From: Rhyzopertha dominica
Lineage: Eukaryota; Arthropoda; Insecta; Coleoptera; Bostrichidae
Length of the DNA: 64,000 bases
Assembly (NCBI GenBank): GCA_025024175.1
Contig: QCXZ01000086.1
Location: forward strand, 12,118,245-12,182,244
Reading direction: 5' to 3'
Shown piece after piece: positions 5,523 through 61,429 of this stretch (within the stretch, counting starts at the first letter, position 1; each line of letters opens with the position of its first letter). Below the pieces are notes generated by a model. The model made no database searches, was not told the origin of the DNA, and was given only the letters and a program-made list of their open reading frames with translations. Position numbers and translations under genes: made by a program.

Positions 5523-5576
5523 GTAATAATTTATTTATCTATTGTTCATTATCACTATATACTTAATTATTGGGAA

Positions 5577-5820: not shown

Positions 5821-5848
5821 TTCCTATAAACAATGTGTATCCAATATA

Positions 5849-7380: not shown

Positions 7381-7382
7381 TA

Positions 7383-9500: not shown

Positions 9501-9507
9501 ACCTTAT

Positions 9508-9669
9508 GGGCTGGTTGCACAAACTGTGATCAATTTGATCGTGATGTTAACCTCAGATCAAAACCATGGTAACCATGAATTTTAAGCATTCTTATCGGTT
9601 TGCCATGGTTTGATCCAAGGTTAACACCATCACCACGATCAAATTGATTCACGTTCGTGCAACCAGCCC
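9508..9669. mobile_element. Palindromic MITE (162 bp), GGGCTGGTTGCAC family
   Basis: The terminal inverted repeat is GGGCTGGTTGCAC, and the palindrome continues inward through GATCAATTTGATCGTGATGTTAACC. TAT flanks both ends. A related longer copy is at 26997-27411. The 3-bp flank and the GGG start hint at PIF/Harbinger, but this is unproven. Confidence 0.8.
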
Positions 9670-9689
9670 TATTTCTGTGATACAGTATT

Positions 9690-10275
9690 TCTGCTATACA
9701 TTATTTTTTTAATACATTCATTTCATACAGTTATACAAATTGTGGTGCCACATATTGGAAATTAGGCTTGTTGATATTTCACGTAGTATTGCTTTTGCTC
9801 TTAGACAAGGTTGGGCTGCGATGCTGCTAGATGGTGAGAGAGTGTGCGAAGTTTGTGGAGGGTTGCCAGTGCCAGCGTAATGAAATTTTCGTAAAAGTAA
9901 CAGATTTTTGCTGAAGGGTAATAAGGCAATAGATCGGCTTGTAAAGTAATTATATCTATTACAATAGTATTAGTTCATCAAAAAGAAACTTATCTTGCTT
10001 GTGCGATACAGTTATTATCAGATGGGCAGCTTCCAGCAGGTGGTGTATTGCGTAATTTTTCCGGCTAAAATTTGTCTATTCAAAAAGCAGTATGTTTCTG
10101 ATAATTAGCTCGGGCAGTACGACTGTATACATTAGCTTGCTTGATAAATAACATAAATAATAATACCAAATGAAATACTGAAGAAAAATAAATCTAACCA
10201 TCAAAAAACAGACCCATGTTTTAGATAAAATTACTAGCGGACCTGGCAGACGTTGTCCTGCATGATATTCCAAAC
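9690..10275. other. No recognisable gene
   Basis: AT-rich sequence between a MITE and a tandem repeat. No coding pattern, hairpin or known repeat was recognised. Confidence 0.5.
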
Positions 10276-10334
10276 GATTAGGTTATTAAAATGAATGAAT
10301 GAATGCATACACAAAAATTCATTCAAGTCGATCC

Positions 10335-11618: not shown

Positions 11619-12044
11619 GTCAGTCCAGCCGTTTAGTTAGTTATAGATAACTAACCTGGATACTGACTGCAGGGCCATCTGCCGGGCTGATTTGTGAATC
11701 TAAACCATCCAGGGCGCCACCCAAACGCATACAAAAAAATTTATTCAGCCGTTAAGGAGAAAATAACTTAAATACCGATTGCAGCACCATCTGCCAAGCT
11801 GATTTGTGAATCTAAAAGAATCAAGGGCGCCACCCAAACGCATACAAAAAAAATCATTCTAATCAGTCCAGCCGTTCAGAATGAATTAACCTAGATACCG
11901 ACTGCAGCGCCATCTGCTGGGCTGATTTGGGAATCTAAACCATACACGGCGCTACCCAAACGTATACAAAAAAATTCATTCAAATCGGTCCAGCCATTTA
12001 GGAGGAATTCGGTGACATACACACATACGCTATAATTATATATA

Positions 12045-30720: not shown

Positions 30721-32099
30721 TTTTTTAAAATTGTTTGGTCTTTATTTAAGTTTATGTGTGCTATATGCATATTTATTATACTATATATTATACTATATTT
30801 GTTGACGTTTCTAAAACATTTTATGTTATTTATGGACATGTCGATCAGTATTATAAGTAGCAGTTTCTTCTGCTAAAACAATCCATCCTAATACTTCTTC
30901 AGCAAACGATAAAGGACCTAAATTTTTTCTACCTATTTTTAAGGTTCAACTCTTCCATTCTAAATTGTTTTTTATGCAAAATTGATATGGGTGTAGTTGT
31001 AGTAACAAATTTAAATGAAAATTATTAAGCAAAGTAAACTAACACGTTTTGACATTTCTTGCTAAATTCATTGCAATGGCTTACTTAATTGAAAGAACTA
31101 TATATGGAAATGTGACTGATGATTGGATATGAATAATAGACCATAAATAAAGTTATTTATTTATTCAGAGAGAAATATCTTAGTTTACTGTCAATATTGC
31201 AAGGAACTGTAAGCAATGCTGAGCAACAATTTTGGGATAACAAACGCATAAGAAAAACAGGTTTCAGTGAAAGAACACACAAAAAAAGACAATTACATTG
31301 TCTTTTGGTATTTGTCTATTGATTTTTGTCCATGCGGTCTTCGTCCATTATTGTAGCCACAATAGCAGCAAAAGTATTGTCAGTAGTAGTATGGGGTCTC
31401 CATCTTCTGTGGTCGTCTTTAACACTAGTCCAATGCTCTGGAATGCTTACTCCATCAAGTTACTATTGAACTATCCACACGACTCCTGCCAAGCTTCTTG
31501 TAACACACTGTGAATTTCGGCAATTGTTTTTTCACACACTGTTTAAATTTTGATATATGCACACTAATCCGCTACAGTGACGTGTTGCAATACATCAAAC
31601 TACCCTGATTTGAGAATTTTTTACACATAAACTGAGTGAACTACCCGTACTCTATATATAGCTAAGTGATGTCCCAATGATACACTTTCATAATTTGACA
31701 GCACTTGTTTCTTCACCATCGCCAGTTCAGTGCTAACTTGATATGTGCAGGAATTATGACATGACCCTTGTATATTGAAATATGAATGATGACCAGAAAT
31801 GAAGATAGTCCATAAAATAAAGTTATTTATTTATGCAGAGAGAAATATCTTAGTTTACTGCCAATATTGCAAGGAACTGTAAGCAATACTGAGCAAGAAT
31901 TTTGGGATAGCAGACACTTGAGAAAAACAGGTATTCACTGAAAAACTGCACTCAAGGAAGAAGTTGATCAAGCTTAATTTGCTGTTGTCCGTTCATAAAA
32001 AACATAACTTTTCCACCAAACAGCAGTATCAAAGTGCAAAAATTTTATCATTACAAACTAATAATCTGCTAGCAATTGCCTGAATAGGATCATGATAGA

Positions 32100-32636
32100 A
32101 GACTCCAGTTTTGTGAACAAATGAGGGATCCACTGGTTGGGAACGATCTGACTACAGAATAATCAAAATTTATGTTAAATGATGAAGTAAACTGACAGAA
32201 TTGTCATCACTGGGAAAAGCAGAGTCTACACTGGAATAGAGCTGTACCCAATGGCCAGAAAAATTGAACATTAGGAGCAATATTTCTTTAATGCATTTAG
32301 AATTCTGGTGGGAAGAGTTATTTCTGAATTTGGTTATTTTATTTGCTTGTCCCTTAGAAGGTAATGACCAAAATAAAAACATCTGGTTCCAACTAGATGG
32401 GGTGTCTCGCTATTTTGCAAAACTTGCCTGAGAATATCTGGATGCCGAACTTACAGCAGATGGAGACGAAGCTGGGAAATGTTGAGGAGTTCAAAGAATT
32501 CATAAGGCATGGAGGTGGGCTAATTTTCCCTGAAGTATTCAGGAACATTTCAAATGATTTAGTTGCATGTGCATTTAAGGTACTGCCAAATAAAACGGGC
32601 AAAATTTTGAGCATTGTTTTTGGAGTAAAAGTGTAA
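32100..32636 (+). pseudogene. Decayed DDE transposase fragment in left foldback arm
   Basis: The plus-strand frame (32397-32636) reads LGNVEEFKEFIRHGGGLIF, FRNISNDLVACAFK and LPNKTGKILS, matching the C-terminal helices of the minus-strand version at 1290-1770. Upstream frames carry an IWFQLDG-like segment near 32380. It ends about 90 bp before the CAGGGTG core terminus. No full catalytic triad is readable. Confidence 0.5.
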
Positions 32637-32724
32637 AGGCTAATTTTTTAATTTTTCAAGTAATATATTTTGTTCGAAATCATGTAAATGACAAGAAACA
32701 AAATTTTAAAATGTAGCATTTATA

Positions 32725-35219
32725 CAGGGTGTTCACGTTAACTATCTACAATAGCTAACTTCTTTATTTGATATCGCAATCTGGTGGCTTAAATGGGTAA
32801 GTTTTATAAATTTTTTTGACAAATTTTGTGGTTAAAAAAAGCAATTGAATATCAACTGACTGAGATATCGAGTACAAGTTTGTTATTTTAAATGACACCA
32901 TTTTTTATAGTGCATTCAATTGAAGGCGTCACATAAAAAAAGCCCTAAGGTACCACTACCCTACAGTCAGTTTTTTTTTTACAATATCACATGTTGAATT
33001 GCTGTTCATGAAACAGTCTACAATTGTGAATGTTTTTTAGTTGAGAACATAGACTAGTGGTTTCAATGGGAAAGTTTTATGAACTTTTGTGGTGTTTATA
33101 AAAAATAATTGAAAATCAACTGACCAAGATATTCATTACAAGTCTGTCATTTTAAATGGAATGACCCCATTTTTTACAGTGCATTCGATTAAGGGAGTCA
33201 AATTAAACTAAAAAGTATTAAGGTAACACTACCCTACAATCATTTGTTTTTGGGATTATCTCATGTTGAATAACTGCTATTCACAAAACTGTCTAAAACA
33301 GCAACTTTTTTATTTGACGTCGTAGATTAGTGGCTTAAATGGAATTCTCATGAGATTTTTTAGAATTTTTTAGTATATAAAAAAAAGCAATTGAACATCA
33401 ACTTATAGAGATATCTACTAGAAGTTTGTTATTTTAAACAGAGTGACAAAAAAGTACTAAAGTACTACTACCCTACAGTCATTTACCTCTGAAATAACTT
33501 GCTGTTTACAAAACGGTGTACAATAACTATTTGACGTCATAGACTAGTGCTTTAAATGGGGAAGTTTAATGAATTTTTGATAAAAATTTTGCTATACTTA
33601 CAAAAAAAAATAATTGGACATCAACTGACCCAGATATTTACCACAAGTTTGTTATTTTAAATGGAACAATCCAAATTAAATGGGCTATTGGGTAGAGTAA
33701 ATAGAACTAAACATAAAAGTATTAAAATACCACTACCCTACAGTCATTTATTATTGAGATGTCTCCTGCTAAATAATTGATGTTCATGAAACCGTCTACA
33801 ACAGCTAAGTTTTTTATTTGAAGTAAACAGAAGTTTCTCGATTTTTTAGGAGGAATCTTATGGTGATAGCAAACAAACAATTGAACATGACGGACTGAGT
33901 TATTACAACTTTGTTTTTTTAGATGGAACGATGCATTTATGAACAACCCATTGAATAGAGTATATCAAATTAAACAAAAAAAGTACTAAGGTACCACTAC
34001 CCTACAGTCATTTGTTTTTGAGATATCACATGTTGAATGATTGCTGTTTACGAAACGCTTCTATTTGACATCATAGACTAGTGGTTTAAATGGGAAAGTT
34101 TTATGAATTTTTGAGAAGCATTTTGTGGTGTTTACAAAAAATAATTGAAAATCAGCTGACGAAGATATGTGCTACAAGTTTGTTATTTTAAATGGAACAG
34201 TCCAATTCAAATAGTCTGTTGGATAGAGTATATTGAACTAAACAAAGAAGTACTAAGGTACCACTACCCTACAGTCATTTGTGTTTGAGATATCTCACAT
34301 TGAATAATTGTTGTTCACGAAACAGTCTACATTAGCTAATTTTTCGAGAAGTATCTGATGGTGATAATAAACAATTGCACATAAACTGACTGAGATATTA
34401 GTGACAACTTTGNTATATNAAATGGAACAATCAAATTAAACAAAANAGTACTAAGGTGATACTACCCCACAGATTTGGTATTGAGATATTTAAAGTTGTA
34501 GAAGAGGTTGTTCTTTTTAAAACAACAAACTTGTAGTCAATATATTGATCAGTTGACGTACAATTGTTTTTGTAAACAGAAAATTTTCCTGAAAAAAATC
34601 ATAGAACTCCCTCATTTAAACCGATAGTCTGCAACATCAAATAACAAAGTCAGCTATTGTTGACTGTTACCATAAACACCAAAGATTGTTTCTGAAACAT
34701 CTCACAAACAAATGACTGTAGGGTGGTAGTACCTTAATACTCTTTTGTTTAATTTGACGCTCTTAATCGAATGCACTGTAAAAATGGGGTTGTTCTATTT
34801 AAAATCACATACTTGTAGTAGATATCTTGGTCAGTTGATTTCCATTTGNTNTTTGTAAACACCACAAAANCTTCTCAAAAGTTCATAAAACGTCCCCATT
34901 GAAAAACGCTAGTCTACAATGTCAAATAAAAAATGTTGGGAATTGTAGACTGTTTCATGAACAGCAATTGTTCAACATGTGATATCGCAAAAATAAATGA
35001 CTTTAGGGTAGTAGTTCCTTAGTGCTTTTTTTTTAATGTGACTCCTTCAATCAAATACACTATAAAGAATAGGGTCGTTTAAACTAACAAACTTGTAGTT
35101 GATATCTCAGTCAGTTGATGTTCAATTGTTGTTTTTTTCTAAAACCTATCTAATAAATTCATAAAACTTATCAATTAAGCCACCCGCTTGTGACATCAAA
35201 TGTTAAAGTGAACACCTTG
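32725..35219. mobile_element. Foldback core with about 265-bp tandem units, TA-flanked
   Basis: Ends CAGGGTGTTCACGTTAAC on the left and CAAGGTGTTCAC on the right, flanked by TATA. Inside, a unit of roughly 265 bp marked by CTACCCTACAGTCATTT recurs forward near 32958, 33229, 33467, 33732, 33996, 34265 and 34464, and inverted near 34709 and 35002. Each unit resembles the terminal sequence, so termini and array share an origin. No ORF. Confidence 0.85.
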
Positions 35220-35289
35220 TATAAATACTACATTTTAAAATTTTGTTTCTAGTCATTTACAAAATTTTGAACAAAATATATTACTTGAA

Positions 35290-35460
35290 AAATTGCTCAA
35301 AATTTTGTCCACTTTATTTGGCAGTACCTTAAATGCACATGCAAGTAAATCATTTGAAATATTCCTGAATACTTCAGGGAAAATTAGCTTACATACATGC
35401 CTTATGAATTCCTTGAACTCCTCAACATTTCCCAGCTTCGTCTTAAAAACTGCAAAACTA
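35290..35460 (-). pseudogene. Decayed DDE transposase fragment in right foldback arm
   Basis: Shortened mirror of 32397-32636: same C-terminal helix coding on the minus strand, truncated where the sequence jumps to ATTCAGTCAATTCCTAGC. Confidence 0.45.
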
Positions 35461-37304
35461 TTCAGTCAATTCCTAGCAGATTATTAGTTTGTAATGATAC
35501 AATTTTTGCACTTTGATACTGCTGCCTGGTGGAAAAATTATGGTTTTCATAAACTGGCAAAAACACTAAGCTTGATCGACCTCTTCATTGAGTGCAGCCT
35601 TTCAGTGTTATTCTTATGTCTGTTATCCCAAAATTCTTGCTAAGTATTGCTTACAGTTCCTTGCTATATTGACACTAAACTGAGGCAGTTCTCTATGAAT
35701 AAATAAATAATTTTATTTTATGGTCTATCTTCATATCCAATCATCATTCAGATTTAAATATAGTTGTTTCAGTTAAGTAAGGCATTGCAATGAATTTAGC
35801 AATAAATGTCAAAAGGTGTTGAATTTATTTAACACAAATTTTGACGTGAACACAGAAAATTACTTTGCTTTCTTTAATAATTTTCATTTAAATTTATTAC
35901 TACAACTACACCCATAACAGTGTTGTATGAAAAATAGGTAGAAAAAGTTAAGATATTTTGATCATTTGCTGAAGCAGATGCATTAAGGTGAATTGTTTTA
36001 ACAGAAAAAATCACTACTTATAATACTGATTAACATGTCCAAACAAAATAAAAACTGCATTCAATGACTGAATTTGTTCCAAGTTATAAACTCGCACTGT
36101 ATATTAATATTATTATATCTGTGCTAGAACCAGTACAAAATACTCTACCATTTTCTTGAAGTTTTCACTGCCAACCTTGACTTTTCCTACAGACGTTTCG
36201 CTGATATTTGTGGAAAAAGTTTATGCAAGGTTTAATATATGTTGTAAAAATCCCGATAAAAATTTATGGCAAGTAAGAATCATGACTCTTTTGCTTTAAT
36301 TGCATTATAAATGTAACAATAAAATAATGTTGCTAAGTCTAGTTTCAAGAAAAAGTCATTTTTTTAAGTAAAATTGTTTGTATAAAGAAATGACCGTAAG
36401 CATTCTTCAAGGTGAAATTCTTTTTAATATATCTCTTAATAACCGTACAAAGTTTATTCATAAAGTATTATTACCTTTTAGTGGAATTATTACATTGACA
36501 AGTGTTTTTAAAATAGTTTTACAATTAAATCTGTTCAAAACAGTGTACCAATTATTTAATATTTAATATAGTATTTAGAAAATGGTTTCTGGGAAATTGT
36601 AAAAATCAAGTTGTTTGTGTTTAGAAGTTTAATAATTGAAAGGGGGACCTCACACTTTTTTCTCTTGTACTATAAAACAATCCTTTTGCTCACAAATTTT
36701 TTTATAACTCCATACTGGTACTGGTGAATAAGGAGGCACTACATTTTCGTAAGGAATTCAGAAATATGAAAACTTCGTTGTTTTACGTAAAAAAAATCAG
36801 TTAGGGTATGTGCACACAAAATCCAATAAATAGTTACAGAGTTATGGAGAAATATCTTTATTTAACTTATTTAAATTAGTCCGTTCATAATAACAGCAAC
36901 ACTAGCTGACAGTCAGTTGCTAGAAAATATATAGGAAAAATGCATTGGAGCAATACATAAAGTACTACATATTAAATTTATGCACTTAGGAGAGTCAGGA
37001 ATATTAAGCCTGCAACTGGTAACTTCCTAACTTCGTTTTTATATATATGTATTGCTGATACTATCACTGTTATTACTGTTTATTTGAACTAACTAAAATG
37101 CAGTTGAGTGATATATTTCTACAATTTTTTATGTAGTTTCTTTTACTTTTAATTATTTCAAGCGAAATTAAAGGTTCACTGGCTCATTTGAGATTTAAAT
37201 TTGCAGTTCCTAAAAATTCCATAGTCATATACTCTTAACAGTTATGTGTTTCTCATTGCTTAAGTTTTCATAATCCATTTTGTAATTTTTTGTTAACCTT
37301 GCAG

Positions 37305-40822: not shown

Positions 40823-41245
40823 AGCAGTGTTCCCTATTTATTTATTGATTATTGGATCAAATAGAGTACATTTATTGAAATCCTCTTCTATTAACTTTTT
40901 TTACTATTTGTTTACAAAAAAGGGGTATAAACTGTAGAAAAGAACTAAAAGGAATTAAAAATTTTCATGAGATTGAAACTAGAAACAAAGAATTTTTATG
41001 TACGAGAAATTTGCATAGCGAAGTTGATCTCTTTGATACTAGCAAAAGGAGTGAAGACATGAAGACAACAAATAAGTCTCCTAGATACCATTCTAATTTA
41101 TAACTTAATGATTTGGAATTGCTTTAAATGATACGTAACTATCTTAAATACTGTGATATTTAGTGAAGTACCTATGTTGTTGGTATGGGATGGGATTTTT
41201 CATGTTGTCGACATTATAATAAAATGAAAAAATTGTCCTTTCCAG

Positions 41246-41625
41246 GCCTAGAAAAAATCCCGGGCATCTTCATATCCCGTTTGGTTCCTGGCGGCCTGGC
41301 CGAATCAACGGGTTTACTGGCCGTAAACGATGAAGTGCTAGAAGTAAACGGGATAGACGTCTGCGGAAAGACTTTGGACCAGGTGACGGACATGATGGTC
41401 GCCAACAGTTCCAACCTCATAATCACTATCAAGCCGGCGAACCAAAGAACCGTGGCTCCCGTCCGCAGGGGCGGCTTCGATAGGAACTCGCAGGTGCCGA
41501 CGGGCTCCCACGTAACGGGTGGCCCTGATCCCGACGACAACCTTGATCAGGACGAAATCATCGATTTGACGGGAGTCACGTTGGAGGAACCCATAAACAT
41601 AGATCAGGGTATATTACATCTGTGA
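41246..41625 (+). CDS. par-6: par-6 terminal coding exon (PDZ domain and C-terminus)
   Basis: Par-6 is the polarity scaffold that binds aPKC through PB1, Cdc42-GTP through CRIB and further partners through PDZ at the apical cortex. This exon starts after acceptor TTTCCAG and completes a Gly codon. It encodes most of the PDZ domain ([60 protein letters not shown]) and a short acidic tail with IIDLTG, ending ILHL. The bases before 41246 are intronic even though open. The first PDZ strands, CRIB and PB1 must lie on upstream exons, none of which I could find. Base composition is far more GC-rich than the surroundings, as expected for a conserved exon. A MULE begins right after the stop. Confidence 0.93.
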
Positions 41626-45560: not shown

Positions 45561-46990
45561 ATTTGTTAAAAAAGCAATTTTGTATTCTAGTCTCCCATGA
45601 GAGGTCAAAAAAGTTTTGCTACGCTATAGGTTTTTTTTACTGTTTGTCGTTTTTTCCGCAGTTTCTGTCGATTAGTAACTACGCCAACAGCTATTTTGAG
45701 AAACCAGTTTTTGAACAATTTACCATTAATATTAATCCCCTTGGAACTCCTAAAATGAGTCATAAGTCATTAAATTTGGTTGAGGCATTTAGAAGATATA
45801 GCATTTGCTTTGTAGTGTTGTTATCATGGCAACGAAATAAAAAATGTTGCAACGGAACTTCTAAGTAATTAAACTCACATTTTATAGGCAAATTTTTTAT
45901 TTATTTGCGTTTCTTTGTAACCTGATGTGAAATACGCCTCCTAGTAGGAAACGTAGGAATTTACAAATATTTTTAGTGAATTACTCTTGTATGCTTTTAT
46001 TAAAAAAATACCTCAAGGCGATAGTGTAAGATCTTTTCTAGATACAGCCGCTTCGTACCTTACTGAATATATTATTATAGTAGTATTATAATTTTAACCC
46101 TATATGTTACTAAACTTTGAAACTTTAATTTTAATATTTTCTTCCAGATGCTTATAATAAATCTTTTATGCAAACCCGCTTTATTTATATGTGATTTTTA
46201 CCATAAAGAATAATTTATAAACTGTTAAAAATGTTTTAATAATATAAAAAATTCTGACAATAGCTTTTATTAAGCAGCTAAAAGTGCTATATTACCAATT
46301 ACCATATTGATAATAAAATGGATATATCTTTGAGATTAATTTTTTAAAGAAGATTATTAAAACATTTTTAACAGTTTAATTAATTAATTAATTATTCTTT
46401 ATGGTGAAAATCACATATAAATATAGCGGGTTTGCATAAAAGGTTTATTATAAGCATCTTTGAAAAATATTAAAATTAAAGTTTGAAAGTTTGGTAACAT
46501 ACAGGGTTATTCACTAAGGGTACGAAGCGCCTGGATCTAGATATCTCACGCTATCGCCTAGAGATATTTTTTAATAAAGGCATAGAAGAGAAATTCACTA
46601 AAAATATTTGTAATTTCCTAAGTTTCCTATTAGGGGGCGTATTTTACATCAGGTTACAGAGAAACGCAGATAAATAAAAAAATTGCTTATAAAATGTGTG
46701 TTTAATTACTTCAGTTTCGTTGCAACATTTCTTCTTTGGTTGCCATGGTAACGATACTACAAAGTAAATGCTATATCTTCTAAACGCCACAACCAAATTT
46801 AATGAATTATGACTCATTTTAGAGGGAGTTCCAAGGATATTAATATTAATGGTGAAGTGTTCAAGAACTGGTTTTTCAAAATAGCTGTAGAGGGCAGCAT
46901 TTGAAAAATTGTAACACTTCGATTTCTAAAAAAACAAATATATGACGATGTACTTTTTTCACTTCGTTTTGTAGGCTATTATGTAAAAAG
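45560..46990. repeat. Imperfect palindrome of about 1.4 kb
   Basis: Arms 45560-46290 and 46310-46990 are inverted. AACCAGTTTTTGAACAATTT (45700) pairs with AAGAACTGGTTTTTC near 46860. CGTACCTTACTGAATA (46054) pairs with the TTCACTAAGGGTACG end at 46510. TTACTAAACTTTGAAACTTT (46107) pairs near 46485. The left arm looks like the right half of the element at 46502-48833. Confidence 0.8.
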
Positions 46991-48833
46991 AGTGGTGAAA
47001 ACGCAAGGCAAGTGTTATTTTTTATTTTGAAGCTATTGCCAGTATAGTATGCACATCACATAAAATAAAAAAGGATTTTTTTACTTTATTTTGTAAGTTA
47101 TTGTTTAATAAAAACTATGGTAAAACCTGAGACTGACAATGTATCTCGTTTTAAAAGTTATTGCCAAAATAGTACACACAAGACACAAAGTAAAAAAAAA
47201 CTAATTTTCGCCTTGAATTTTAAAGAAAATCTAACCAGGGCAACACTTTTCAATTTGTTTTATAGGCTTTAATTTAAGAAAAATTGCGGTAAAAAACTGA
47301 AGTTGATAGCTTTTGTCATTTCAAACTTATTGCCAAAATAATAAGTACACGAACAACACATAACTGAGCAAATTATCCAATAATGGATCAATTTAATTTG
47401 CACTTCTAACGACTAGTCAAATAAAGATAAATAAAAGATATTAATATTTTCAAGCTTAACAATGTATTTTTAGTGGTTAAAATTAGGTATCTTATTACTG
47501 TCACGTTCAGTTTTACCATGTTTCTTGGGTTTAGGTAGGCCGTTGGTCTTAGACAATGGAGACAAATGTCAATATTTCAATAGCATTGATTGTATTTTAG
47601 TAGTTCTTGATTGTATCTTTTGAAAATAATTATTAAATGTATTTAAAAAATGCCGTTTACAAATGAAGAAATACCTAAATTTACTTACTTAAATACTTAG
47701 CCACTACCTATGGTAGAAAAGACAATTACTTGAAAATAAATCTTACTTCGGAATAATCGCATCTCTTCCGAGTTTGCAAATGACATTTATTTCTAATTTA
47801 CTAGTTATTATACTGCCGACTTCTTTTCTCTTGTATTGACATATCCGAATTATAAACAATAAGAGAATTATAACCATTAGATATAAAATATAAAATTTTG
47901 AGCTTTTAATAAAATCAATATTCTGTGAATAGATTTAGAAAAATACAGTTGTATAAGTCATTAAAGGTACAAATTACACTCAATTACTGTCGAATAAATT
48001 AGGAAATGAGTTGCTCGGTTGTGTGGTGTGTATGTTATTTTCCTAATAACTTCTAAAATATAATAACAATCAATCTTGGGTTTTAACCATAGTTTTTGTT
48101 CAATAATAGCCTGCAAAACAAAGTTCAAAATTGTATATCACTCTATTTAATTTTTTCCGGAAATAAAGGACGGACCTACTTTTTTTGTGTTGTGTGTCCT
48201 ATTTTAACAGTAATTTTAAAACGAGAACAGCTATCAACCACATCAGCAGTTTTTCCTCAAATAATAGCCTACAAAACAAAATGAAAAAACGAATGTCTTA
48301 TAGGTACACTTTTATCTTTAGAAATCAAGGAGAAAAATTTTTCTTTATTTTGTCTTGAGTGTACTATTTGGGCAATAGAGAAATCGCGAAAATTATGATA
48401 ATTCTAAAAATAGCANCTTCTGTAGCTATTTAGAGAAACCAATTTTGAAACAATTTAGCATTAATATTAATCCTCTTGAAACTCCTAAATGAGCCTTAGC
48501 TCGTTAAGGGGTTGAGACGTTTAAGAAGTTTTGAGGCTATTTTAGTTTGTAGTGACGTTACTGTGACAACCAGAGAAAAAATATTGTAATGAAACTTTTA
48601 AGTAATTAAACACAGATTTTAAAGATTCTATTTGCCATTACATTTTATCGGCAAATTTTGGATTTATTTGCATCTATTTGTAACGTGATGTCAAATACGC
48701 CCCCTATCGGGACACTTAGGAACTTAAAATATTTTTAGTGAATTTGTCTATGTTTTAATACAAAAGTCTTTACTCAAAGCGATATCGTTACAGGTTTTCA
48801 AGATACAGCCACTCCGTACCCTTAGTGAATCTG
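46502..48833. mobile_element. TA-adjacent foldback element, CAGGGTTATTCACTAAGG family
   Basis: The left end CAGGGTTATTCACTAAGGGT and the right end, the complement of CAGATTCACTAAGGGTACGG, are inverted. The arms carry matching blocks such as a CGCCCCCTA segment near 48696 and GGGGGCGTATTT near 46634, plus inverted TAGCCTACAAAACAAAATG-like sequence near 46975 and 48268. The centre (47340-48040) is unique AT-rich sequence. Part of the arm sequence (AAGATACAGCCG, GAAATACGCC-CCTAG) is shared with the element at 24321-26589. Confidence 0.8.
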
Positions 48834-48839
48834 TTATAT

Positions 48840-49142
48840 AAGATGGCTTCGGTCTCGAATACTCCGCTTTAAAAATATTTTCGTGTTTTCCCACTTCCCA
48901 TCATACCGGAAGTTGAAGTTGAAAACATGTGGCCTATTCAACTTTACAAAAGTGTTTTAAACACGAGAATGTGTTTTGTATTTGAAATACTTCATTATTT
49001 TAGTGTAAACTTAAGGAAAAGTTTTTATGTATTTATTTCATTTAATTATTATTAATTAATATTTAACTTACCATTTTATAATGCTTGACCAGAGTGTCAG
49101 GAAATTTCTTTGAATATTCGCAAGAAAGAACAAACAGAAGCT
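48840..49142. other. Spacer, no gene seen
   Basis: No coding pattern recognised between the foldback and the MULE duplication site. Confidence 0.5.
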
Positions 49143-50720: not shown

Positions 50721-51392
50721 TTCACGCCTAGTATTTTACTTGAAATAACAGTCCGCAGTGTATTTACATAAATCTGGTTTTGTCTTAGCTCCTCCAATTT
50801 ATCCAGTTTCTTCATATATGCCTTTGTGTTAAAAAGCTTTTCGTATGCCGATTAATTTAGCTTTTATTTTGGATTCTACATGTCTGAGAAGATCAAATTG
50901 AAGAGCAAAAAGTAAATATGTAGGTATTCTAATATCCATCATGTCTAGAGGGTTTCCTATATCTAAAAAAATCCTAAACAGGTATAGTATTTCATTTCCT
51001 AATATCTGCCTATGTTTATCCCTTTCCAGTTAATTTTTGTCAGTATATGTCTCGTTGATTTTAGGTACTTATATAATGTTTTTGTATTTGCTATTTATTG
51101 AAATTACACTTAAATTATTTATTCTCTTATGTGATTAAAAAATATCCCAACCTTATCAAAAAGTGGGCAAAAAAACACCTTGTTTTTCTGTACAATAGGC
51201 TTGACATTACGAGAGATGCCGATATATTTTCAAAATAAACTGAATAAATTGAAATTTGAAGAAAAAATGTGAGAAATTTTACTCAGGGGTGAAAAGGACG
51301 GTGGCGAAACGGAGTCAGGGGCGAAAGGGTGGGGGCGAAACGNCCGTATCCCTTGGTTTTCCATGCGCTGAAGTAGTTGTATTGTGGCACGC

Positions 51393-52850
51393 GGGTCCGT
51401 TAAGTTAGCTCCGCCATGTTGAGCAATTTTTTTGAAAACATTGCTCCAGATTGCCCTGAGCTAGCTCCAGCTAGCTCCACTAAAGAGAAAGCTAGCTCCA
51501 CCTTACTTGAGTAGTTATAAGCTCATCATTGCGGGGGGGGGGTAACTTAACGTTATCCTCGCCATGTCCTCAAATCTGTTTCAAAAGCTAGCTCCAGCTA
51601 GCTCCACTAAAGAGAAAGCTAGCTCCACCTTACTTGAGTAGTTATAAGCTCATCATTGCGGGGGGGGGGCTAACTTAACGTTATCCTCGCCATGGCCTCA
51701 AATCTGTTTCAAAAGCTAGCTCCAGCTTGCCCAGAGCTAGCTCCAGCTAGCTCCACTAAAGAGAAAGCTAGCTCCACCTTACTTGAGTAGTTATAAGCTG
51801 ATCATTGCGGGGGGGCTAACTTAACGTTATCCTCGCCATGGCCTCAAATATGTTTCAAAACCTAGCTCCAGCTTTCCCAGAGCTAGCTCCAGCTAGCTTC
51901 ACTAAAGAGAAAGCTAGCTCCACCTTACTTGAGTAGTTATAAGCTCACCATTGCGGGGGGTGCTAACTTAACGTTATCCTCGCCATGGCCTCAAATATGT
52001 TTCAAAACCTAGCTCCAGCTTGCCCAGAGCTAGCTCCAGCTTGCCCAGAGCTAGCTCCAGCTAGCTCCACTAAAGAGAGAGCTAGCTCCACCTTACTTGA
52101 GTAGTTATAAGCTCATCATTTCTGGGAGTGCTATCTTAACTTTATCCTCGCCATNGCCTCAAATTTGTTTCAAAAGCTAGCTCCAGCTTGTCCAGAGCTA
52201 GCTCCAAGCTTGCCCGGAGCTAGCTCCAGCTTGCCCAGAGCTAGCTCCAGCTAGCTCCACTAAAGAGAAAGCTAGCTCCACCTTACTTGAGTAGTTATAA
52301 GCTCATCATTTCTGGGAGTGCTAACTTAACGTTATGCTCGCCATGGCCTCAAATGTGTTTCAAAAGCTAGCTCCAGCTTGCCCAGAGCTAGCTCCAGCTA
52401 GCTCCACAAAAGAGAAAGCTAGCTCCACCTTACTTGAGTAGTTATAAGCTCATCATTTCGGGGGTGCTAACTTAACGCCATCCTCGCCACTGTGTCAAAT
52501 CTGTTTCAAAACCTAGCTCCAGCTTGCCCAGAGCTAGCTCCAGCTAGCTCCACTATAGAGAAAGCTAGCTCCATCTTATTTGAGTAATTATAAGCTCATA
52601 ATTTCGGGGGGTGCTCACTTAACGCTATCCTCGCCACTGTTTCAAATCTGTTTTAAAACCTAGCTCCACTATAGAGAAAGCCAGCTCCACCTCACTTGAG
52701 TAGTATAAGCTCATCACTTAGGAGGGTGCTAACTTAACGCTATCCTCGCCACTGTTTCAAAACCTAGCTCCAGGTAGCCCAGGGCTAGCTCTAGCTAGTT
52801 CCGCTATAGACAAAGTTAGCTCCATCCCAATTTCCATAATTTTCAGGAAA
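51393..52850. repeat. Left-arm tandem array, about 146-bp unit rich in GCTAGCTCC
   Basis: About nine units, marked by a CCTCGCCAT/CT landmark near 51563, 51686, 51831, 51978, 52145, 52336, 52482, 52629 and 52744 (spacing 115-191). Each contains AGCTAGCTCCAGC blocks, CACCTTACTTGAGTAGTTAT, a G-run of variable length and GCTAACTTAACG. The element terminus is itself a degenerate unit. Length differences come from varying numbers of GCTAGCTCCAGCTTGCCC sub-blocks. Confidence 0.92.
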
Positions 52851-54034
52851 AGAAGATTTAGCTCCGCCATTTTGATCGGTCGATCTGAAAAAATAGCTCC
52901 ACATCATTTGGGGCTGTCTTTAGTTAGCTCCGTTCTTAAAAAGCTAGCTACATTCAGCTACGTTCAGAAAAAATATTATGACAGTTAGCCCCACAATTTT
53001 GTCGTGTCGATATGAGAAGCTAAATCCGTGTGGTAGGTCTCAACTTTATATCATATTATAATAATAGTAATAAGTTTTATAGGCCTGCAGATCATCTACA
53101 TTTGCAATTTCCAAAGTAACGGACAAACATGAGTAAATGGTAGAACAAAAATATATTTTTAGTGTTATTGAAACAGCGTAGTGGCAATACGCCAAAAATA
53201 TCACATTATTATGAGTTGTAATTAAGTTGTGTTGAGTTAAAATACAATTCTGATGAACGAAGTGTTTAATTGACTGTGTACATAGCATTTAGCTTAGTTG
53301 AAATAGTTGTACCGGAAACGGTTAAAGTCAGGGGGGCGTGTTCCAGGTATCCGAATCGCAGAAAAACGATAGGGGCTTAGATACGATTGGTAGGTTTAAC
53401 AGACATAAAATTTAATACTTAATGCTTTAATCATAGCATTCACGTTATGAAATCAAAAAGTCAAAACTTAATTCAATGTAGTAACTAANATAATGAACGC
53501 AATACTTTCGTAACATCAGCTATCCTGTATACATACAAGTGCAGAGTTTTAAGCATGGCGCAATCTTTACAGTTGTTCGGTAACGAAAAACCCTTGTACA
53601 AATAACGTTTATCGAATTTGAGTTTCTTTATAGATTGTATGAAAACAATCATATTATTTATAAAGAAGTAAAAAAATAAAAATTAAANTCCCGAGATGTT
53701 ACCAAAATGGAATTACCTATATTCAAAAGGTCCAAGCATTGACTTTCCCAGATTCGTTCAATCTGAATCATTTTTTAAGCAATCAGAAAATTAATTGTCA
53801 TAATTTGTAAGCTATAAATCATAATTTGTAAGCTAGTAGTATTGTACATAGTTGTTGTATAACAATAGAGGATATGAAAGTTTCTTAAATGTTTCACAAA
53901 TAATTTGTAAGATCTCTGTAACATATCCAGTGTTTCGGTGTAAAATTGGCGAAATATATCAGACAGCAGTGTGTGATGTAGGGGAGGCGAGTTAAATTAA
54001 AAAGTAAAGTAAAGAAATGAAAGAGTTGTGTTTA

Positions 54035-54427
54035 TTATACAGAGTAGAAGAAACATGCTGCTCTCACTACAGAATATGGCATGACTATTTGCTTCTTCAA
54101 AAGAAGGTCGTTATAAAGTTCCCACTTGCCATTATGACGATAACAGTAGGCAACAAAGTGGCCTACAGAAGTTGGGGTAGCACACCCCTGGTATCCTACT
54201 ACTCCTCTTAATACGTATTCCGAGTCATTTACCTGTATTCTTTTTGGCACGTCTTCTAAATTGATCTGCACTTCGCAGGTGTTCGAAATAATGCTCAACG
54301 GTTCTATTAAAATAGAGTTACCTTTCAGCTCAATTCTACCTTCGACTTTTCTATAGCCACATAAACATATTTTTGTAATTGTAGTGGGTGCCAATAACGA
54401 CAGAAATTTTGTTTCCAGCTCCAACAC
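54035..54427 (-). CDS. USP-like (peptidase C19) C-terminal segment, left arm
   Basis: The 130-residue minus-strand ORF reads NSILIEPLSIISNTCEVQIN, then YVLRGVVGYQG, then GHFVAYCYRHNGKWELYNDL and VVRAACFFYSV. The Y.LRGVV.Y.G...GHFVAY......WELYND arrangement corresponds to the C-terminal His box of ubiquitin-specific proteases, with the catalytic His and later Asn/Asp recognisable. The N-terminal Cys box is absent, so this is either a last exon or a cargo fragment. Its N-terminus extends into the unpaired centre (MLELETKFLSLLAP), so this copy preserves more sequence than its mirror. Source and activity are unknown. Confidence 0.6.
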   Translation of the reverse strand: MLELETKFLSLLAPTTITKICLCGYRKVEGRIELKGNSILIEPLSIISNTCEVQINLEDVPKRIQVNDSEYVLRGVVGYQGCATPTSVGHFVAYCYRHNGKWELYNDLLLKKQIVMPYSVVRAACFFYSV

Positions 54428-54481
54428 ATTATCGATGCAAACTGAAATGAGCTTTAGGTTAACTGCGTTTGCTGTATTGCA

Positions 54482-54817
54482 ATGTTGACAGGCTTCTATT
54501 TGAGAGCATATTTGAGATGTTCGGAATATGGTAACTGTATTTTAATAGAACCGTTGAGCATTATTTCGAACACCTGCGAAGTGCAGATCAATTTAGAAGA
54601 CGTGCCAAAAAGAATACAGGTAAATGACTCGGAATACGTATTAAGAGGAGTAGTAGGATACCAGGGGTGTGCTACCCCAACTTCTGTAGGCCACTTTGTT
54701 GCCTACTGTTATCGTCATAATGGCAAGTGGGAACTTTATAACGACCTTCTTTTGAAGAAGCAAATAGCCATGCCATATTCTGTAGTGAGAGCAGCATGTT
54801 TCTTCTACTCTGTATAA
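54482..54817 (+). CDS. USP-like (peptidase C19) C-terminal segment, mirrored in right arm
   Basis: Inverted copy of the preceding ORF. From ILIEPLS to the C-terminus it differs only at a few residues (for example KKQIAMPYS versus KKQIVMPYS), but its first 20 residues (MLTGFYLRAYLRCSEYG) are unrelated and come from the unpaired centre. Both copies read outward from the centre. It is probably not an independent gene; the near identity reflects the young or homogenised palindrome. Confidence 0.5.
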   Translation: MLTGFYLRAYLRCSEYGNCILIEPLSIISNTCEVQINLEDVPKRIQVNDSEYVLRGVVGYQGCATPTSVGHFVAYCYRHNGKWELYNDLLLKKQIAMPYSVVRAACFFYSV

Positions 54818-55959
54818 TAAACACAACTCTTTCATTTCTTTACTTTACTTTTTAATTTAACTCGCCTCCCCTACATCACACACTGCTGTCTGATATATTT
54901 CGCCAATTTTACACCGAAACACTGGATATGTTACAGAGATCCTACAAATTATTTGTGAAACATTTAAGAAACTTTCATATCCTCTATTGTTATACAACAA
55001 CTATGTACAATACTACTAGCTTACAAATTATGATTTATAGCTTACAAATTATGACAATTAATTTTCTGATTGCTTAAAAAATGATTCAGATTGAACGAAT
55101 CTGGGAAAGTCAATGCCTGGACCTTTTGAATATTGGTAATTCCATTTTGGTAACATGTCGGGAATTTAATTTTTATTTTTTTACTTCTTTATAAATAATA
55201 TGATTGTTTTCATACAATCTATAAAGAAACTCAAATTCGATAAACGTTATTTATACAAGGGTTTTTCGTTACCGAACAACTGTAAAGATTGCGCCATGCT
55301 TAAAACTCTGCACTTGTATGTCTACAGGATAGCTGATGTTACGAAAGTATTGCGTTCATTATTTTAGTTACTGCATTGAATTAAGTTTTGACTTTTGATT
55401 TCATAACGTGAATGCTATGATTAAAGCATTAAGTATTAAATTTTATGTCTGTTAAACCTACCAATCGTATCTAAGCCCCTATCGTTTTTCTGCGATTCGG
55501 ATACCTGGAAGACGCCCCCCTGATTTTAACCGTTTCCGGTACAACTATTTCAACTACGCTAAATGCTATGTACACAGTCAATTAAACACTTCGTTCATCA
55601 GAATTGTATTTTAACTCAACACAACTTAATTACAACTCATAATAATGTGATATTTTTGGCGTATTGCCACTACGCTGTTTCAATAACACTAAAAATATAT
55701 TTTTGTTCTACCATTACTCATGTTTGTCCGTTACTTTGGAAATTGCAAATGTAGATGATCTGCAGGCCTATAAAAATTATTACTATTATTATAATATGAT
55801 ATAAAGCTGAGACCTACCACACGGATTTAGCTTCTCATATCGACACGACAAAATTGTGGGGCTGTCATAATATTTTTTCTGAACGTAGCTGAATGTAGCT
55901 AGCTTTTTAAGAACGGAGTTAACTGAAGACAGCCCCAAATGATGTGGAGCTATTTTTTC

Positions 55960-57106
55960 AGATCGACCGATCAAAATGGCGGAGCTAAATCTTCTTTTCC
56001 TGAAAATTATGGAAATTGGGATGGAGCTAACTTGGTCTATAGCGGAGCTAGCTAGAGCTAGCCCTGGGCTACCTGGAGCAAGGTTTTGAAACAGTGGCGA
56101 GGATAGCGTTAAGTTAGCACCCTCCTAAGTGATGAGCTTATACTACTCAAGTGAGGTGGAGCTGGCTTTCCCTATAGTGGAGCTAGGTTTTAAAACAGAT
56201 TTGAAACAGTGGCGAGGATAGCGTTAAGTGAGCACCCCCCGAAATGATGAGCTTATATTTACTCAAGTAAGATGTAGCTAGCTTTCTCTATAGTGGAGCT
56301 AGCTGGAGCTAGCTCTGGGCAAGCTGGAGCTAGGTTTTGAAACAGATTTGACACTGTGACGAGGATGGCGTTAAGTTAGCACCCCCGAAATGATGAGCTT
56401 ATAACTNCTCAAGTAAGGTGGAGCTAGCTTTCTCTTTAGTGGAGCTAGCTGGAGCTNGCTCTGGGCNAGCTGGAGCTAGCTTTTGAAACACATTNGAGGC
56501 CATGGCGAGGATAACGNTNAGTTAGCACTCCCAGAAATGATGAGCTTATAACTACTCAAGTAAGGTGGAGCTAGCTTTCTCTTTAGTGGAGCTAGCTCTG
56601 GGCAAGCTGGAGCTAGCTTTTGAAACAGATTTGAGGCCATGGCGAGGATAACGTTAAGTTAGCACTCCCAGAAATGATCAGCTTATAACTACTCAAGTAA
56701 GGTGGAGCTAGCTCTCTCTTTAGTGGAGCTAGCTGGAGCTAGCTCTGGGCAAGCTAGAGCTAGCTTTTGAAACAGATTTGAGGCTATGGCGAGGATAATG
56801 TTAAGTTAGCACTCCCAGCAATGATGAGCTTATAACTACTCAAGTAAGGTGGAGCTAGCTTTCTCTTTAGTGGAGCTAGCTGGAGCTAGCTCTGGGCAAG
56901 CTGGAGCTATCTTTTGAAACAGATTTGAGGCCATGGCGAGGATAACGTTAAGTTAGCCCCCCCCCCCCCGCAATGATGAGCTTATAACTACTCAAGTAAG
57001 GTGGAGCTAGCTTTCTCTTTAGTGGAGCTAGCTGGAGCTAGCTCTGGGCAAGCTGGAGCTAGCTTTTGAAACAGATTTGAGGCCATGGCGAGGATAACGT
57101 TAAGTT
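55960..57106. repeat. Right-arm tandem array, proximal part
   Basis: Inverted counterpart of the array at 51393-52850, with landmark GGCGAGGATA recurring about every 145 bp. Interrupted by the LINE at about 57107; the remainder is at 61092-61390. Confidence 0.92.
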
Positions 57107-57201
57107 TGTAATAATAGTAATAGTAATCTTTATTTTGAAATATATAGTATATAACAAAATAGTAGTCCAAAATCAATAACAATTATTACCTGGAAAGATA
57201 A

Positions 57202-60162
57202 TTACATTTCAAAATATTCTTGAAGACTATAAGGCTCTAGTTCAACTAACAATTTTTTAATACATTTCTTAAAATTCACAAATCCATTTATGGTCTTAAC
57301 ATTATAAGGCAACTTATTAAATACTCTAATAGACATGTAATGTGGGCTTTTTTCTGTGACTGTTAATCGATGTGCAGGATATGCAATATTAGCGGTTCTG
57401 GTATCATAATACAGACTTGATAAATTTCTAAATGTTTCTTTGCTTCTAAAACATGATATAAGACATTCATAAATGTATAATCCATACACTGTCATAATAT
57501 TAAGACCCCTGAATTGCCCTCTGCAAGATTCAGAATATTTTAATCTTTTAATAAATCTGATGGTTCTTTTTTGAATTACAAATACTTTATGTACATTGCT
57601 GCTTTTACCCCAAAAAATAACTCCATACCGCAACAGGGATTCAAAGTTAGCACAATATATTATTCTAAGAGTCTCAATATCCATATACTTGGCCAATGTT
57701 TTGAAAGCAAAGTTAACTTTATTTAATTTAGTACACAGTCTGTTTATATGTGTCTGCCATTCGAGAAACTCGTCAATTTCCATACCTAAAAACCCACAAT
57801 CACTAACCAGCGGTAACTGTGTGTCATGCGAAATGGACAGTGTAAAATCGTCACTGATTTGCAGACAAGACTGTCTAGTACGAAACAAAATCGCCTTGGT
57901 TTTATTTTTATTTAGCACCAACTGATTACTTTCGAACCACTTGCTTATCTCCTTAAAAGCAGTCTTGCAAGCAGATACAGTACTCTCAAGGGAATTTCCA
58001 CTAATCAACACATTTGTGTCATCTGCATAATTCACTACTGAAAAATTTGACGATATCTGTACTATGTCATTAATATAAACCAAAAAAAAAAGTGGTCCCA
58101 ACACGCTACCTTGGGGTATACCCTGAGTTATTATTTCTGGCTTTGATATTGCACTTATGCATTCTTTTCTAATAATTACCATTTGTTTCCTATCCGTGAG
58201 ATAAGATCTTACCCACTCCTGAGCTTTACCTCTAATACCATATTTTTCTAATTTATATAATAAGTAATTATGATTAATACAGTCATAAGCTTTCGACAAA
58301 TCTAGAAATAAGCCAATTGAAAGGTTTTTATTTTCTAACTCTTGCAAAATTGTCTGAGTAAACTGATAAATTGCTGTAGTCGTCGACCGACCCTTCATGT
58401 AACCATGTTGGAATTTATTCAAAATACTGCATTTATTTAAGAAATGTAATATTCTATTAAGAAAAACTGTTTCAAAAATTTTAGAAAAACCTGTCAGTAT
58501 ACTTACGGGGCGATAATTATCAAATAACTGTGAGTCACCTTTCTTAAGGAGTGGCTTAATTAATGCAGATTTAATTTGAGTTGGAACAATACCATATTTA
58601 AAAGAATTATTAATTATGTAACCAAGAATCTCTGCTACTGCTGGAATACAATATTTGACTATTGAACTAGGTACATCATCAACACCACTACTATGTTTAT
58701 TCTTCAGTTTACTAGCTGTACTAAGCAATTCAGCGGTCGTTACAGGGTATAAGTACATACTTTGATCGTTTTCAACAATATTGCAATTAAAATTAACATT
58801 TTTTGAACTTTTTAATATATTAGGTACTATTTGCAATAGATATCGGTTGTAGTTATCAGCTATGTCCTCAACGTTCCCCTCAATTACACAATTTCCTTTA
58901 TTGCTAGTTTTTGCTAGTAACTCATTGCAAATTGTCCACATGCACTTAGCTTTATTATCTGCTTTTTTAACTCTATTTTTATAGTTATTCGAACGCTCCT
59001 TTAACAGCAATTTGTCGTATTCCTGCTTTGTTTCTTTATACATGTCTTTATAGGCCTTATTATTTAAGTACATAACAAACAAGATATCCAGCTTTTGTTT
59101 ACATTTAAGAATAATTTCACTACTTGGTGTTACGTTCTTACATACCTTAGTACTAACTCTCCTTTTAGGAAAGCGGTGCTCAAAAATTCGTTTAAAATTG
59201 TTCTGGAATAGTTGCCACTGTTGATTTACATCATTCATGTTTAATGAAAAAACATCGTCCCATTTCTGTTCAGATAAACTATTGAAAAACTCACTTTTAT
59301 TTCGCTCATTAAAATTTCTTTTGTATGTATATGTGACGAAGTTTTTCTTAAGCAACTCAAAAGAGACTCTCTGTGCTAAATGGTCTGAAATGTGAAAATT
59401 CAAAGTTATAGCTGAAAATTTCTTGCTGTTTGTAAAAATATTATCAATGCATGTACTAGTATTGTGTGTGATTCGCGTTGGTTCATATATAGTTCGGTAC
59501 ATTGAGAATGACTCCATAAGCGCAATTAAATCAGAACTTGCCTGAGAGGTTTTTTTTAAATCAATGTTATAATCACCGGCCAAAAAACAGATGTCACTTA
59601 TGTTGCACAGCTGCGCAAGTAGTTCTTCCAGTTTCTTAAGAAATAGGTCTATATTACCATTAGGAGGCCTATAAACGGAACTGATAACATAGCATTGTTT
59701 CTCAATATACACTTTGGTCACTGCACATTCAAATTCCCCCTTCAGAGACAGATTACACCAGTTTTTTCAACTGTGTTTTAGAGAACTTTTCACATACACC
59801 GCTGCACCTCCATGCTCACCCTCACCTCTACAAAAACTAGCCGATAGCGAAAAATTTTTAATCCCTAAAGTCATTAATTGTCTTTCACTTTGCCAGTGTT
59901 CAGTAATACAAAGAAATTCACATTCAGGATCTTGTTCCAATAATAGTTCCAAAGCTTCAATAGAGTTACTTAAAGATCTAACATTTTGATGGACAACACT
60001 AACCGTTCTATTTGAGTTTGTCTGCGTTTCTTTCGCTCCCAATTTCCTCTTGTTTACCGGGGTGGCCACGAAACAAATTGTTATCAAATCTGAACCTCCT
60101 GACCTTAATGTTACTGGGCCAAAAATCTGCTGTACTAATTTTGTCATTATGTATAAAATCAA
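57202..60162 (-). pseudogene. LINE ORF2 (endonuclease-reverse transcriptase) with one in-frame stop
   Basis: Two minus-strand segments, 60162-59767 and 59721-57202, are in the same frame, separated by a TGA at 59764-59766. The first has the endonuclease start (VVHQNVRSLSNSIEALELLL, FLCITEHW). The second has SSVYRPPNGNIDLFLKKL, FLAGDYNIDLK and ISDHLAQ (endonuclease). It continues with PLLKKGDSQLFDNYRPVSIL, FLDLSKAYDCINHNYLL, GIPQGSVLGPLFFLVYINDI and the catalytic YADD near residue 564 of this part, then the thumb and a C-terminal region ending YSLQEYFEM. All RT motifs are intact. Apart from the stop, which may be a consensus error, it could have been active recently. Confidence 0.92.
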
Positions 60163-61078
60163 ACCCGACTTGGAATGCCTTCAACTTTCCACGAGTCTCT
60201 AACTGAGGGCACACTACATCCTTAAGTTCTGGACACTCGGTAGTGATGTAATCTTTTACCATATCTGAAGTGGTGTTTGTCTCACAACCACCTACATATA
60301 TCCAGGCTTTCTTTATNGGGGCTTTCAGTATGCTCGTTTTTGTGTTTCTTCCTATGAGTGTATCTTTTTTATACTGATCACGCTGCTGTCTTTTTACTAA
60401 GGTAAAACCATCCTTGTCAATAATATCACTATTAACGTTAATGAGAGACCTCACAACATTCCCTTGTATACGCTCCATATCTTTTAGATTTTGCTTTTGA
60501 TTTACGATCGCCTTGCCTTCCGTGAGGGTTCCGGTAGTAATATTTACAGTTTTATTTTCGGTCAACACCTGACTGAATGTTTTTCTATTATTTGTGTCGT
60601 TCACCTTGTCTTTTTGTTGCTTATTTATTTCTTGCTGTAAAATCGTATTGTCACGTTGAACCTCCTTATCAAGACTTGCATTTTTGCATACTGATGAATG
60701 TGTCTCGTTCACAATCGAATTTAATGTGTCGACTACATTTAACAGTCTTATTTGCTCTTTTAGTATGCCGTTATTTTCACGAAGTTGTTCGATTATGATG
60801 TTTTTGTGTTCTATGATGCTCTTCAGATATTTAATCTCTTCGGACTGACTCAATGCTGTTGTAAATTCCTCAGAAGTGCCGTCTGCACCTTCAGTATGCA
60901 CTTCATTGGTGTCACAGCACTTTATCATCGATTCACTAACAAACTTAACTCTTTTTGCTACTCTTGCACAACTGAGATGGAATGTTGTGCCACATGCTAC
61001 ACACTTAGGACCTCTGTTCACCTCATTTTTACATTTTCCGCAGCGGAGAGACAAATGTGCATCTGCCTCGTCCGCCAT
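60008..61078 (-). CDS. LINE ORF1 (PHD-like zinc finger, coiled coil, RRM-like C-terminus)
   Basis: The 356-residue ORF begins MADEADAHLSLRCGKCKNEV. Cysteines at 13, 16, 26, 29 and 37 with His34 form a PHD-like zinc finger, common in CR1-group ORF1 proteins. A predicted coiled coil follows (about 78-115; EEIKYLKSIIEHKNIIIEQL), then a Lys/Thr-rich linker. The C-terminal domain (KKAWIYVGGCETNTTSDMVK ... VRRFRF) resembles the RRM-like domain of these proteins. Its end overlaps the start of ORF2. One X results from an n. It is likely an RNA-binding chaperone of the retrotransposon particle. Confidence 0.85.
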   Translation of the reverse strand: MADEADAHLSLRCGKCKNEVNRGPKCVACGTTFHLSCARVAKRVKFVSESMIKCCDTNEVHTEGADGTSEEFTTALSQSEEIKYLKSIIEHKNIIIEQLRENNGILKEQIRLLNVVDTLNSIVNETHSSVCKNASLDKEVQRDNTILQQEINKQQKDKVNDTNNRKTFSQVLTENKTVNITTGTLTEGKAIVNQKQNLKDMERIQGNVVRSLINVNSDIIDKDGFTLVKRQQRDQYKKDTLIGRNTKTSILKAXIKKAWIYVGGCETNTTSDMVKDYITTECPELKDVVCPQLETRGKLKAFQVGFDFIHNDKISTADFWPSNIKVRRFRFDNNLFRGHPGKQEEIGSERNADKLK

Positions 61079-61091
61079 CTTACATTAGTAA

Positions 61092-61390
61092 CTAGCCCCC
61101 CTCGCAATGATGAGCTTATAACTACTCAAGTAAGGTGGAGCTAGCTTTCTCTTTAGTGGAGCTAGCTGGAGCTAGCTCTGGGCAAGCTGGAGCTAGCTTT
61201 TGAAACAGATTTGAGGCCATGGCGAGGATAACGTTAAGTTAGCCCCCCCCGCAATGATGAGCTTATAACTACTCAAGTAAGGTGAAGCTAGCTTTCTCTT
61301 TAGTGGAGCTAGCTGGAGCTAGCTCAGGGCAATCTGGAGCAATGTTTTCAAAAAAATTGCTCAACATGGCGGAGCTAACTTAACGGACCC
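61092..61390. repeat. Right-arm tandem array, distal part and element terminus
   Basis: Two units and the terminal degenerate unit, ending GGAGCTAACTTAACGGACCC before the 9-bp duplication. Confidence 0.92.
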
Positions 61391-61429
61391 GTGGCACGCA
61401 GTGTAATAGCTCTTACAGTGTGCGCTGGT

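Follow-up and report, generated by a model that had tools for sequence, protein, structure and literature searches.

Introduction

The closest described relatives of the element dealt with here are the Rehavkus transposons, which generate 9-bp target site duplications (TSDs; PMC6446971) and whose Tribolium representative, Rehavkus-1_TC, is a 9.5-kb element having inverted ends made of tandem units of ~150–164 bp (PMC10218199). The subject of this study is a foldback insertion found in a 64,000-nucleotide stretch of the beetle Rhyzopertha dominica (contig QCXZ01000086.1, positions 12,118,245 to 12,182,244), the whole of which is referred to as “the window”. Its family shares with Rehavkus the 9-bp TSD, a size of ~10 kb and the tandem-unit inverted ends (PMC10218199, PMC6446971); unlike this family, and by comparison of descriptions only, Rehavkus is described as having a PHD finger and no protease (PMC6446971). 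The explanation that, taken as a whole, we consider very probable is that the window element is a non-autonomous foldback of a Rehavkus-like (Mutator-clan), cut-and-paste, two-gene transposon, so that an odd foldback with a “captured gene” is recast as the derivative of a transposon encoding both a transposase and a USP-like protease.

Proteases of this general sort are encoded by other transposons. Mutator transposases with a C-terminal Ulp1 domain (and PHD) occur in Hydra, lancelet and plants, KI-MULE being one of them (PMC2836005, PMC2528002); like the window family they combine a Mutator-type transposase with a ubiquitin-like-modifier protease, but the latter has the C48 as opposed to the USP (C19/C98) fold. 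A single cited protein of the protist Trichomonas vaginalis, XP_001314237.1, joins a USP-type peptidase (Peptidase C19) to a DNA transposase, which, however, belongs to a different family (transposase_11; PMC2836005). Helentrons likewise encode deubiquitinase-type domains, VTD and OTU, with conserved catalytic residues; activity has been shown for VTD, which was proposed to prevent degradation of proteins required for transposition (PMC9741609), but these are rolling-circle transposons and their proteases belong to different classes. A role in transposition has also been proposed for Ulp1 and OTU domains (PMC2836005).

As to architecture, the Tm1 Mutator/Foldback elements of root-knot nematodes resemble the window family in having terminal inverted repeats built of tandem repeats, mostly 9-bp TSDs and members both with and without a putative transposase, but their units are of ~14 bp and no protease is mentioned in the available part of the source (PMC3169594). 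The Mu killer of maize, for which a hairpin RNA was proposed (PMC3440606), resembles the window copy in that part of a transposon gene is present, together with terminal repeats, as an inverted duplicate; it differs from it in that it belongs to a plant and the duplicated gene is that of the transposase.

In the literature searched, no description was found of a USP-type protease accompanying a Mutator/Rehavkus-type transposase. The foldback itself is an ordinary derivative; what appears to be new, as a variant of known elements, is the two-gene parent family, in which a USP-type protease goes with this type of transposase. The family might nevertheless be a fully ordinary Rehavkus if the curated entries already hold a USP-like domain, an alternative that concerns novelty, is compatible with the explanation given above and is favored by the 9-bp TSDs common to both; we regard it as rather unlikely, since the table of PMC6446971 lists the PHD finger without a protease, and the main text of that source contains none of the words “ubiquitin”, “peptidase” and “ulp1”.

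Structure of the insertion

The original prediction described a 10-kb foldback with exact ends, an exact 9-bp duplication, highly similar, repeat-built arms and captured USP-like coding in its center. Both GTGGCACGC duplications are indeed exact, and in the whole window this sequence occurs on the plus strand in the two flanking copies only and on the minus strand 0 times, the probability of a chance 9-base match being ~4e-6. The arms are mutually inverted, with 98.2% identity over 2838 aligned columns when the nested insertion is excluded and 98.9% over the 1485 columns of the non-tandem inner portion, and the outer portions of both consist of ~147-bp tandem units; long inverted arms with tandem repeats make up most of the element, which qualifies it as a foldback. 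FB of Drosophila is, alongside Tm1, a comparable foldback system. Of the predicted dimensions, the span of the insertion stands but the size of the foldback does not: the foldback proper is of ~6 kb rather than 10, because a non-long-terminal-repeat (non-LTR) retrotransposon nested in the right arm, about which the original prediction is silent, accounts for the remainder.

A 12-mer, CGTTAAGTTAGC, lies close to each terminus (51398–51409 at the left one) and recurs in inverse orientation in many of the tandem units. It is present in 13 exact copies in the element, including the two ends, and in 0 in the rest of the window, and these repeats are possible candidates for transposase binding sites. 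A scan of the window against Rfam gave 0 matches.

Other copies and mobility

The terminal 68 bp of the element were searched in the genome (479 Mb, 138 contigs), yielding 221 candidates, 40 of which were scored; all 40 match at 100% identity, and none of them is an end of the window element itself. Thirty of these rows form 15 inward-facing pairs, and the remaining 10, having no partner among the rows listed, were left out of the copy set. Each of the 15 paired copies is flanked by an exact 9-bp duplication, every one different in sequence, so that the TSD length reported for Rehavkus is found in the window copy and in 15/15 others, and the anticipated copies with the same ends and different TSDs do exist. 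Fourteen of them are 2.1–4.9 kb long, are covered to 99–100% by the sequence of the window element and gave no match to either transposase or protease; four, of ~4.6 kb, are mutually 99.4–99.7% identical, which suggests recent movement. In viral contigs both the protease P0001 (see below) and a 34-bp terminus gave 0 matches.

These data also bear on the possibility that the palindrome is an assembly artefact, produced by a haplotype or hairpin misjoin. The family is admittedly troublesome to assemble, as illustrated by the gap and the duplicated half of the copy formed by loci L009 and L010, but the window element has an exact 9-bp duplication and 15 further copies carry a duplication of their own. 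Furthermore, a hairpin misassembly is argued against because the arms differ by 1–2% and the retrotransposon is present in one arm only. An artefact is thus scarcely credible, and the palindrome is confirmed as a real transposon insertion.

The two-gene copies

The fifteenth paired copy (L009+L010) encodes a transposase of 711 amino acids (P0008) followed, ~0.25 kb downstream, by a protease of 398 amino acids (P0009). A search for an autonomous partner sharing the termini and bearing a MULE transposase had been suggested, and a partner that has these termini and encodes a transposase does exist, P0008-type genes being present in larger copies; at least two transposase and at least two protease rows are full-length and stop-free, both sets being those of L009+L010 and of a copy on contig C136. 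The MULE-like guess also holds up, and the predicted structure of the transposase displays the IS256-like DDE catalytic fold that characterizes the Mutator/MULE clan. Between their second D and the catalytic E, members of this clan have a CxxH-type motif; the transposase has at this place DxxH, not CxxH, with D477 conserved in 14/14 rows and H480 in 13/14.

The inverted repeat of L009+L010 pairs positions 101–2891 with 16111–13305 and includes the protease gene's final third; consequently, residues ~257–398 of the protease are found antisense in the left repeat of this copy, as they are on C136. In L009+L010 one half of the transposon is present twice, at 393–6174 and 6278–12040, beside a run of 100 N, the assembly having probably duplicated part of a single ~10-kb element.

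The protease piece of the window

The USP-like coding of the center is confirmed, and the piece matches residues 234–398 of P0009. A search of a large protein collection yielded one full-length relative, P0001 (398 amino acids), which covers 98% of the piece at 98% identity. The full protein, a predicted peptidase assigned to the USP (C19/C98) class on the basis of Pfam and a structure model, has the USP fold and the catalytic Cys, His and Asn/Asp. Within the window fragment, the sole Pfam match is that of the mirrored piece to Peptidase_C98 (E 0.074); no NCBIfam family was found, and phmmer against PDB returned Ubp8 at E 0.017. Residues 27–67 of P0001 show a C4HC3-like cysteine pattern with H-x4-C spacing and no Pfam PHD match.

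The term “captured”, on the other hand, has to be abandoned, since the 3′ end of the protease gene sits inside the terminal inverted repeat of two larger copies. The protease end is mirrored because it lies within this repeat, as any sequence located there would be, and a junction at which the gene-side and mirrored-side matches share the triplet GGT is explained by one internal deletion of the two-gene parent. A Pack-MULE-like origin, in which part of a host USP gene entered the foldback and was mirrored when the arms were duplicated, could be suggested by the window copy alone, which has a C-terminal fragment only and lacks a transposase. However, a full-length version of the same protease adjoins an intact transposase between identical ends, homologous proteases occur fused to homologous transposases, and six further relatives, at 29–43% identity, retain the catalytic triad; the sequence inside the element belongs to the protease gene of the parent and is not foreign, unlike the cargo of a Pack-MULE, and capture is accordingly very improbable. 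Judging from the sequences, the protease gene of which this piece forms the 3′ end belongs to the transposon itself and is not captured cargo.

Association of transposase and protease at other loci

The protease domain is in the same frame as the transposase in five of 13 transposase homologues (hidden Markov model E 4.1e-18 to 7.5e-62); two of these (P0016 and P0017) have all three catalytic motifs and three stop short of the His box. The source contigs of another transposase (P0015) and another protease (P0002) are both sized 5470, which is a hint only. Within the genome, at least 25 loci counted by eye have a transposase row followed by a protease row on the same strand, 24 of them with no more than ~1.5 kb between the two and the remaining one with 5.9 kb; these locus lists are lower bounds, 63 of 116 transposase and 104 of 150 protease candidates having been scored.

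Four more loci of the same genome were fetched. At one of them (L037) the transposase frames are broken and a protease frame lies next to them, and another (L038) has a fused frame of 809 amino acids; the three catalytic motifs are present in both. The other two (L039 and L040), mutually 98.7% identical, encode a Peptidase_C48 (Ulp1) domain (above cut-off, at E 7.3e-13 and 2.8e-12) downstream of a divergent transposase (E 5e-30 and 1e-36), with a PHD match below cut-off (E 0.011 and 0.013), and are of the same kind as the Ulp1-bearing Mutator elements. Thus, a single genome shows USP-type and Ulp1-type proteases joined to related transposases, and the pairing of transposase and protease is apparently general.

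Ends of related families and a second foldback family

Minisatellite-like ends, as described for Rehavkus, recur among these families: units of 147 bp are found in the window element and in L035, units of 141 bp downstream of the C48 gene in L039, and in the family with a fused gene two mutually inverted arrays of a 152/153-bp unit, with 6.4 and 17.4 copies, flank this gene. The right end of the fused family (two copies) resembles the terminus of the window element, with a score reached by 1/5000 shuffles in what is one weak comparison; no TSD was found for this family, nor was its left terminus at up to 4 mismatches. Beyond its left array lies a partial second copy of the gene.

At least 43 of 105 protease rows, as counted by eye, fall within residues 246–396 at 33–47% identity and represent a second foldback family. 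In the four of these loci that were fetched (L049–L052), mutually ~95% identical, 152/153-bp inverted arrays surround the center in 4/4 cases and each center contains a single, unmirrored piece of the protease 3′ end; outside the arrays, L050 gives an extra weak protease match (E 0.002). Among foldbacks, keeping of the protease 3′ end therefore recurs, but its mirroring does not.

Proposed origin and function

The parent would have been a transposon of ~10 kb with long inverted ends of ~147-bp tandem units, carrying the gene of the 711-residue DDE-type transposase and, downstream on the same strand, that of the 398-residue USP-like protease, whose last ~140 codons would extend into the right terminal inverted repeat and hence be mirrored antisense in the left. 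One internal deletion at a 3-bp microhomology would have removed the transposase and the first ~233 codons of the protease; the deletion copies would then have been transposed in trans by a P0008-like transposase with a 9-bp target stagger, and the right arm of the window copy would have gained the retrotransposon later. Among the components of this scheme, the ends, the 9-bp duplications, the other copies, both intact genes, the position of the protease 3′ end within the repeat and the deletion junction are directly observed.

Several points weigh against this origin. L009+L010 contains the 100-N gap and a duplicated half of ~5.8 kb, and in the copy on C136 the genes stand 5.9 kb apart, with other sequence intervening, and the fetched stretch stops short of the right end; as a consequence, no clean single parent copy was seen. 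For P0008 no Pfam family was found at E up to 5, an absence from a profile library that is compatible with membership of the clan; phmmer against PDB gave no relative (one unrelated row at E 1), the structure model is middling (predicted template modelling score, pTM, 0.51) and the Foldseek TM-scores are low (0.17–0.18 by query length). As to the protease, the window fragment by itself has no Pfam UCH match, and P0001 gave with phmmer against PDB five rows at E 0.4 or worse, no USP among them. Eight of the 13 transposase homologues have no fused protease, some of these being truncated, and for several distant transposase loci, C86:12549828 among them, the matches listed include no protease row. 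Finally, both the enzymatic activity of the protease and a need for it in transposition are hypothetical.

With regard to function, the protease would, while transposition is under way, strip ubiquitin or SUMO from its companion transposase or from proteins of chromatin or repair, and would be a working partner rather than captured cargo. The mirrored protease end of the window copy could give rise, by analogy with Mu killer, to a hairpin RNA. A broader reading, held tentatively and slightly less probable than its opposite, is that a Mutator/Rehavkus-type clade would need a ubiquitin/SUMO protease of its own as a core component of the transposition machinery, the USP type (adjacent or fused) and, in the same position, the unrelated Ulp1 type being non-homologous replacements of one another, and that, with the 3′ end of the gene situated inside the terminal inverted repeats, foldback derivatives such as the window copy would have a Mu killer-like hairpin architecture directed against the protease mRNA of active copies. 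Since the protease–transposase pairing recurs, the older idea that ubiquitin/SUMO removal plays a part in transposition (PMC2836005) becomes directly testable, and the present family offers as a test bed a cut-and-paste element whose copies are nearly identical and whose ends are well defined.

Feature map and other features of the window

The features of the insertion are listed in Table 1. The nested element encodes a reverse transcriptase (Pfam RVT_1, E 1.1e-30), shows no clear target duplication at its approximate ends and must be younger than the foldback insertion.

Table 1. Coordinates of the foldback insertion and its parts (window positions; ORF, open reading frame)
Feature	Position	Strand	Remarks
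Target site duplication, left copy	51384-51392	+	9 bp, GTGGCACGC
Whole insertion (foldback element and nested retrotransposon)	51393-61390	.	ends GGGTCCGTTAAGTTAGC / GCTAACTTAACGGACCC
Left terminal array	51393-52800	+	~147-bp tandem units, with periods of 115, 168 or 190 in some rows; inner limit approximate
Left inner arm	52801-54037	+	non-tandem, without long ORF; 98.8% identity to right inner arm (1200 columns)
Open frame, 3′ end of the USP-like protease gene	54038-54541	-	168 amino acids; 54038-54532 correspond to P0009 residues 234-398 (of 398)
Deletion junction	54530-54532	.	gene-side match to 54532, mirrored-side match from 54530, GGT common
Mirrored copy of the protease gene 3′ end	54530-54814	+	91 codons from 54542
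Right inner arm	54815-56040	-	non-tandem; outer limit approximate
Right terminal array, inner part	56041-57106	-	~147-bp tandem units; array rows 56178-57106; inner limit approximate
Nested non-LTR retrotransposon	~57107-61092	-	nearly complete; ends approximate
ORF2 of the retrotransposon	57202-60180	-	endonuclease/reverse transcriptase; one frame break near 59766
ORF1 of the retrotransposon	60008-61084	-	
Right terminal array, outer part	61093-61390	-	terminus at its end
Target site duplication, right copy	61391-61399	+	9 bp, GTGGCACGC

Elsewhere in the window, a second large palindrome (30817–36057) has arm pieces ~67–84% alike and recurs, mostly in direct order, at 1–5984, and a 1.2-kb palindrome at 45687–46888 has pieces repeated ~2 kb away (48424–48840). 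By eye, the frames at 13758–15013 (minus strand) and 16252–17764 (plus strand) resemble reverse transcriptase/endonuclease parts of more retrotransposons. A stretch coding for a PDZ domain (Pfam PDZ, E 1.2e-9) lies on the plus strand at 41167–41625 and presumably resembles a Par-6 exon.
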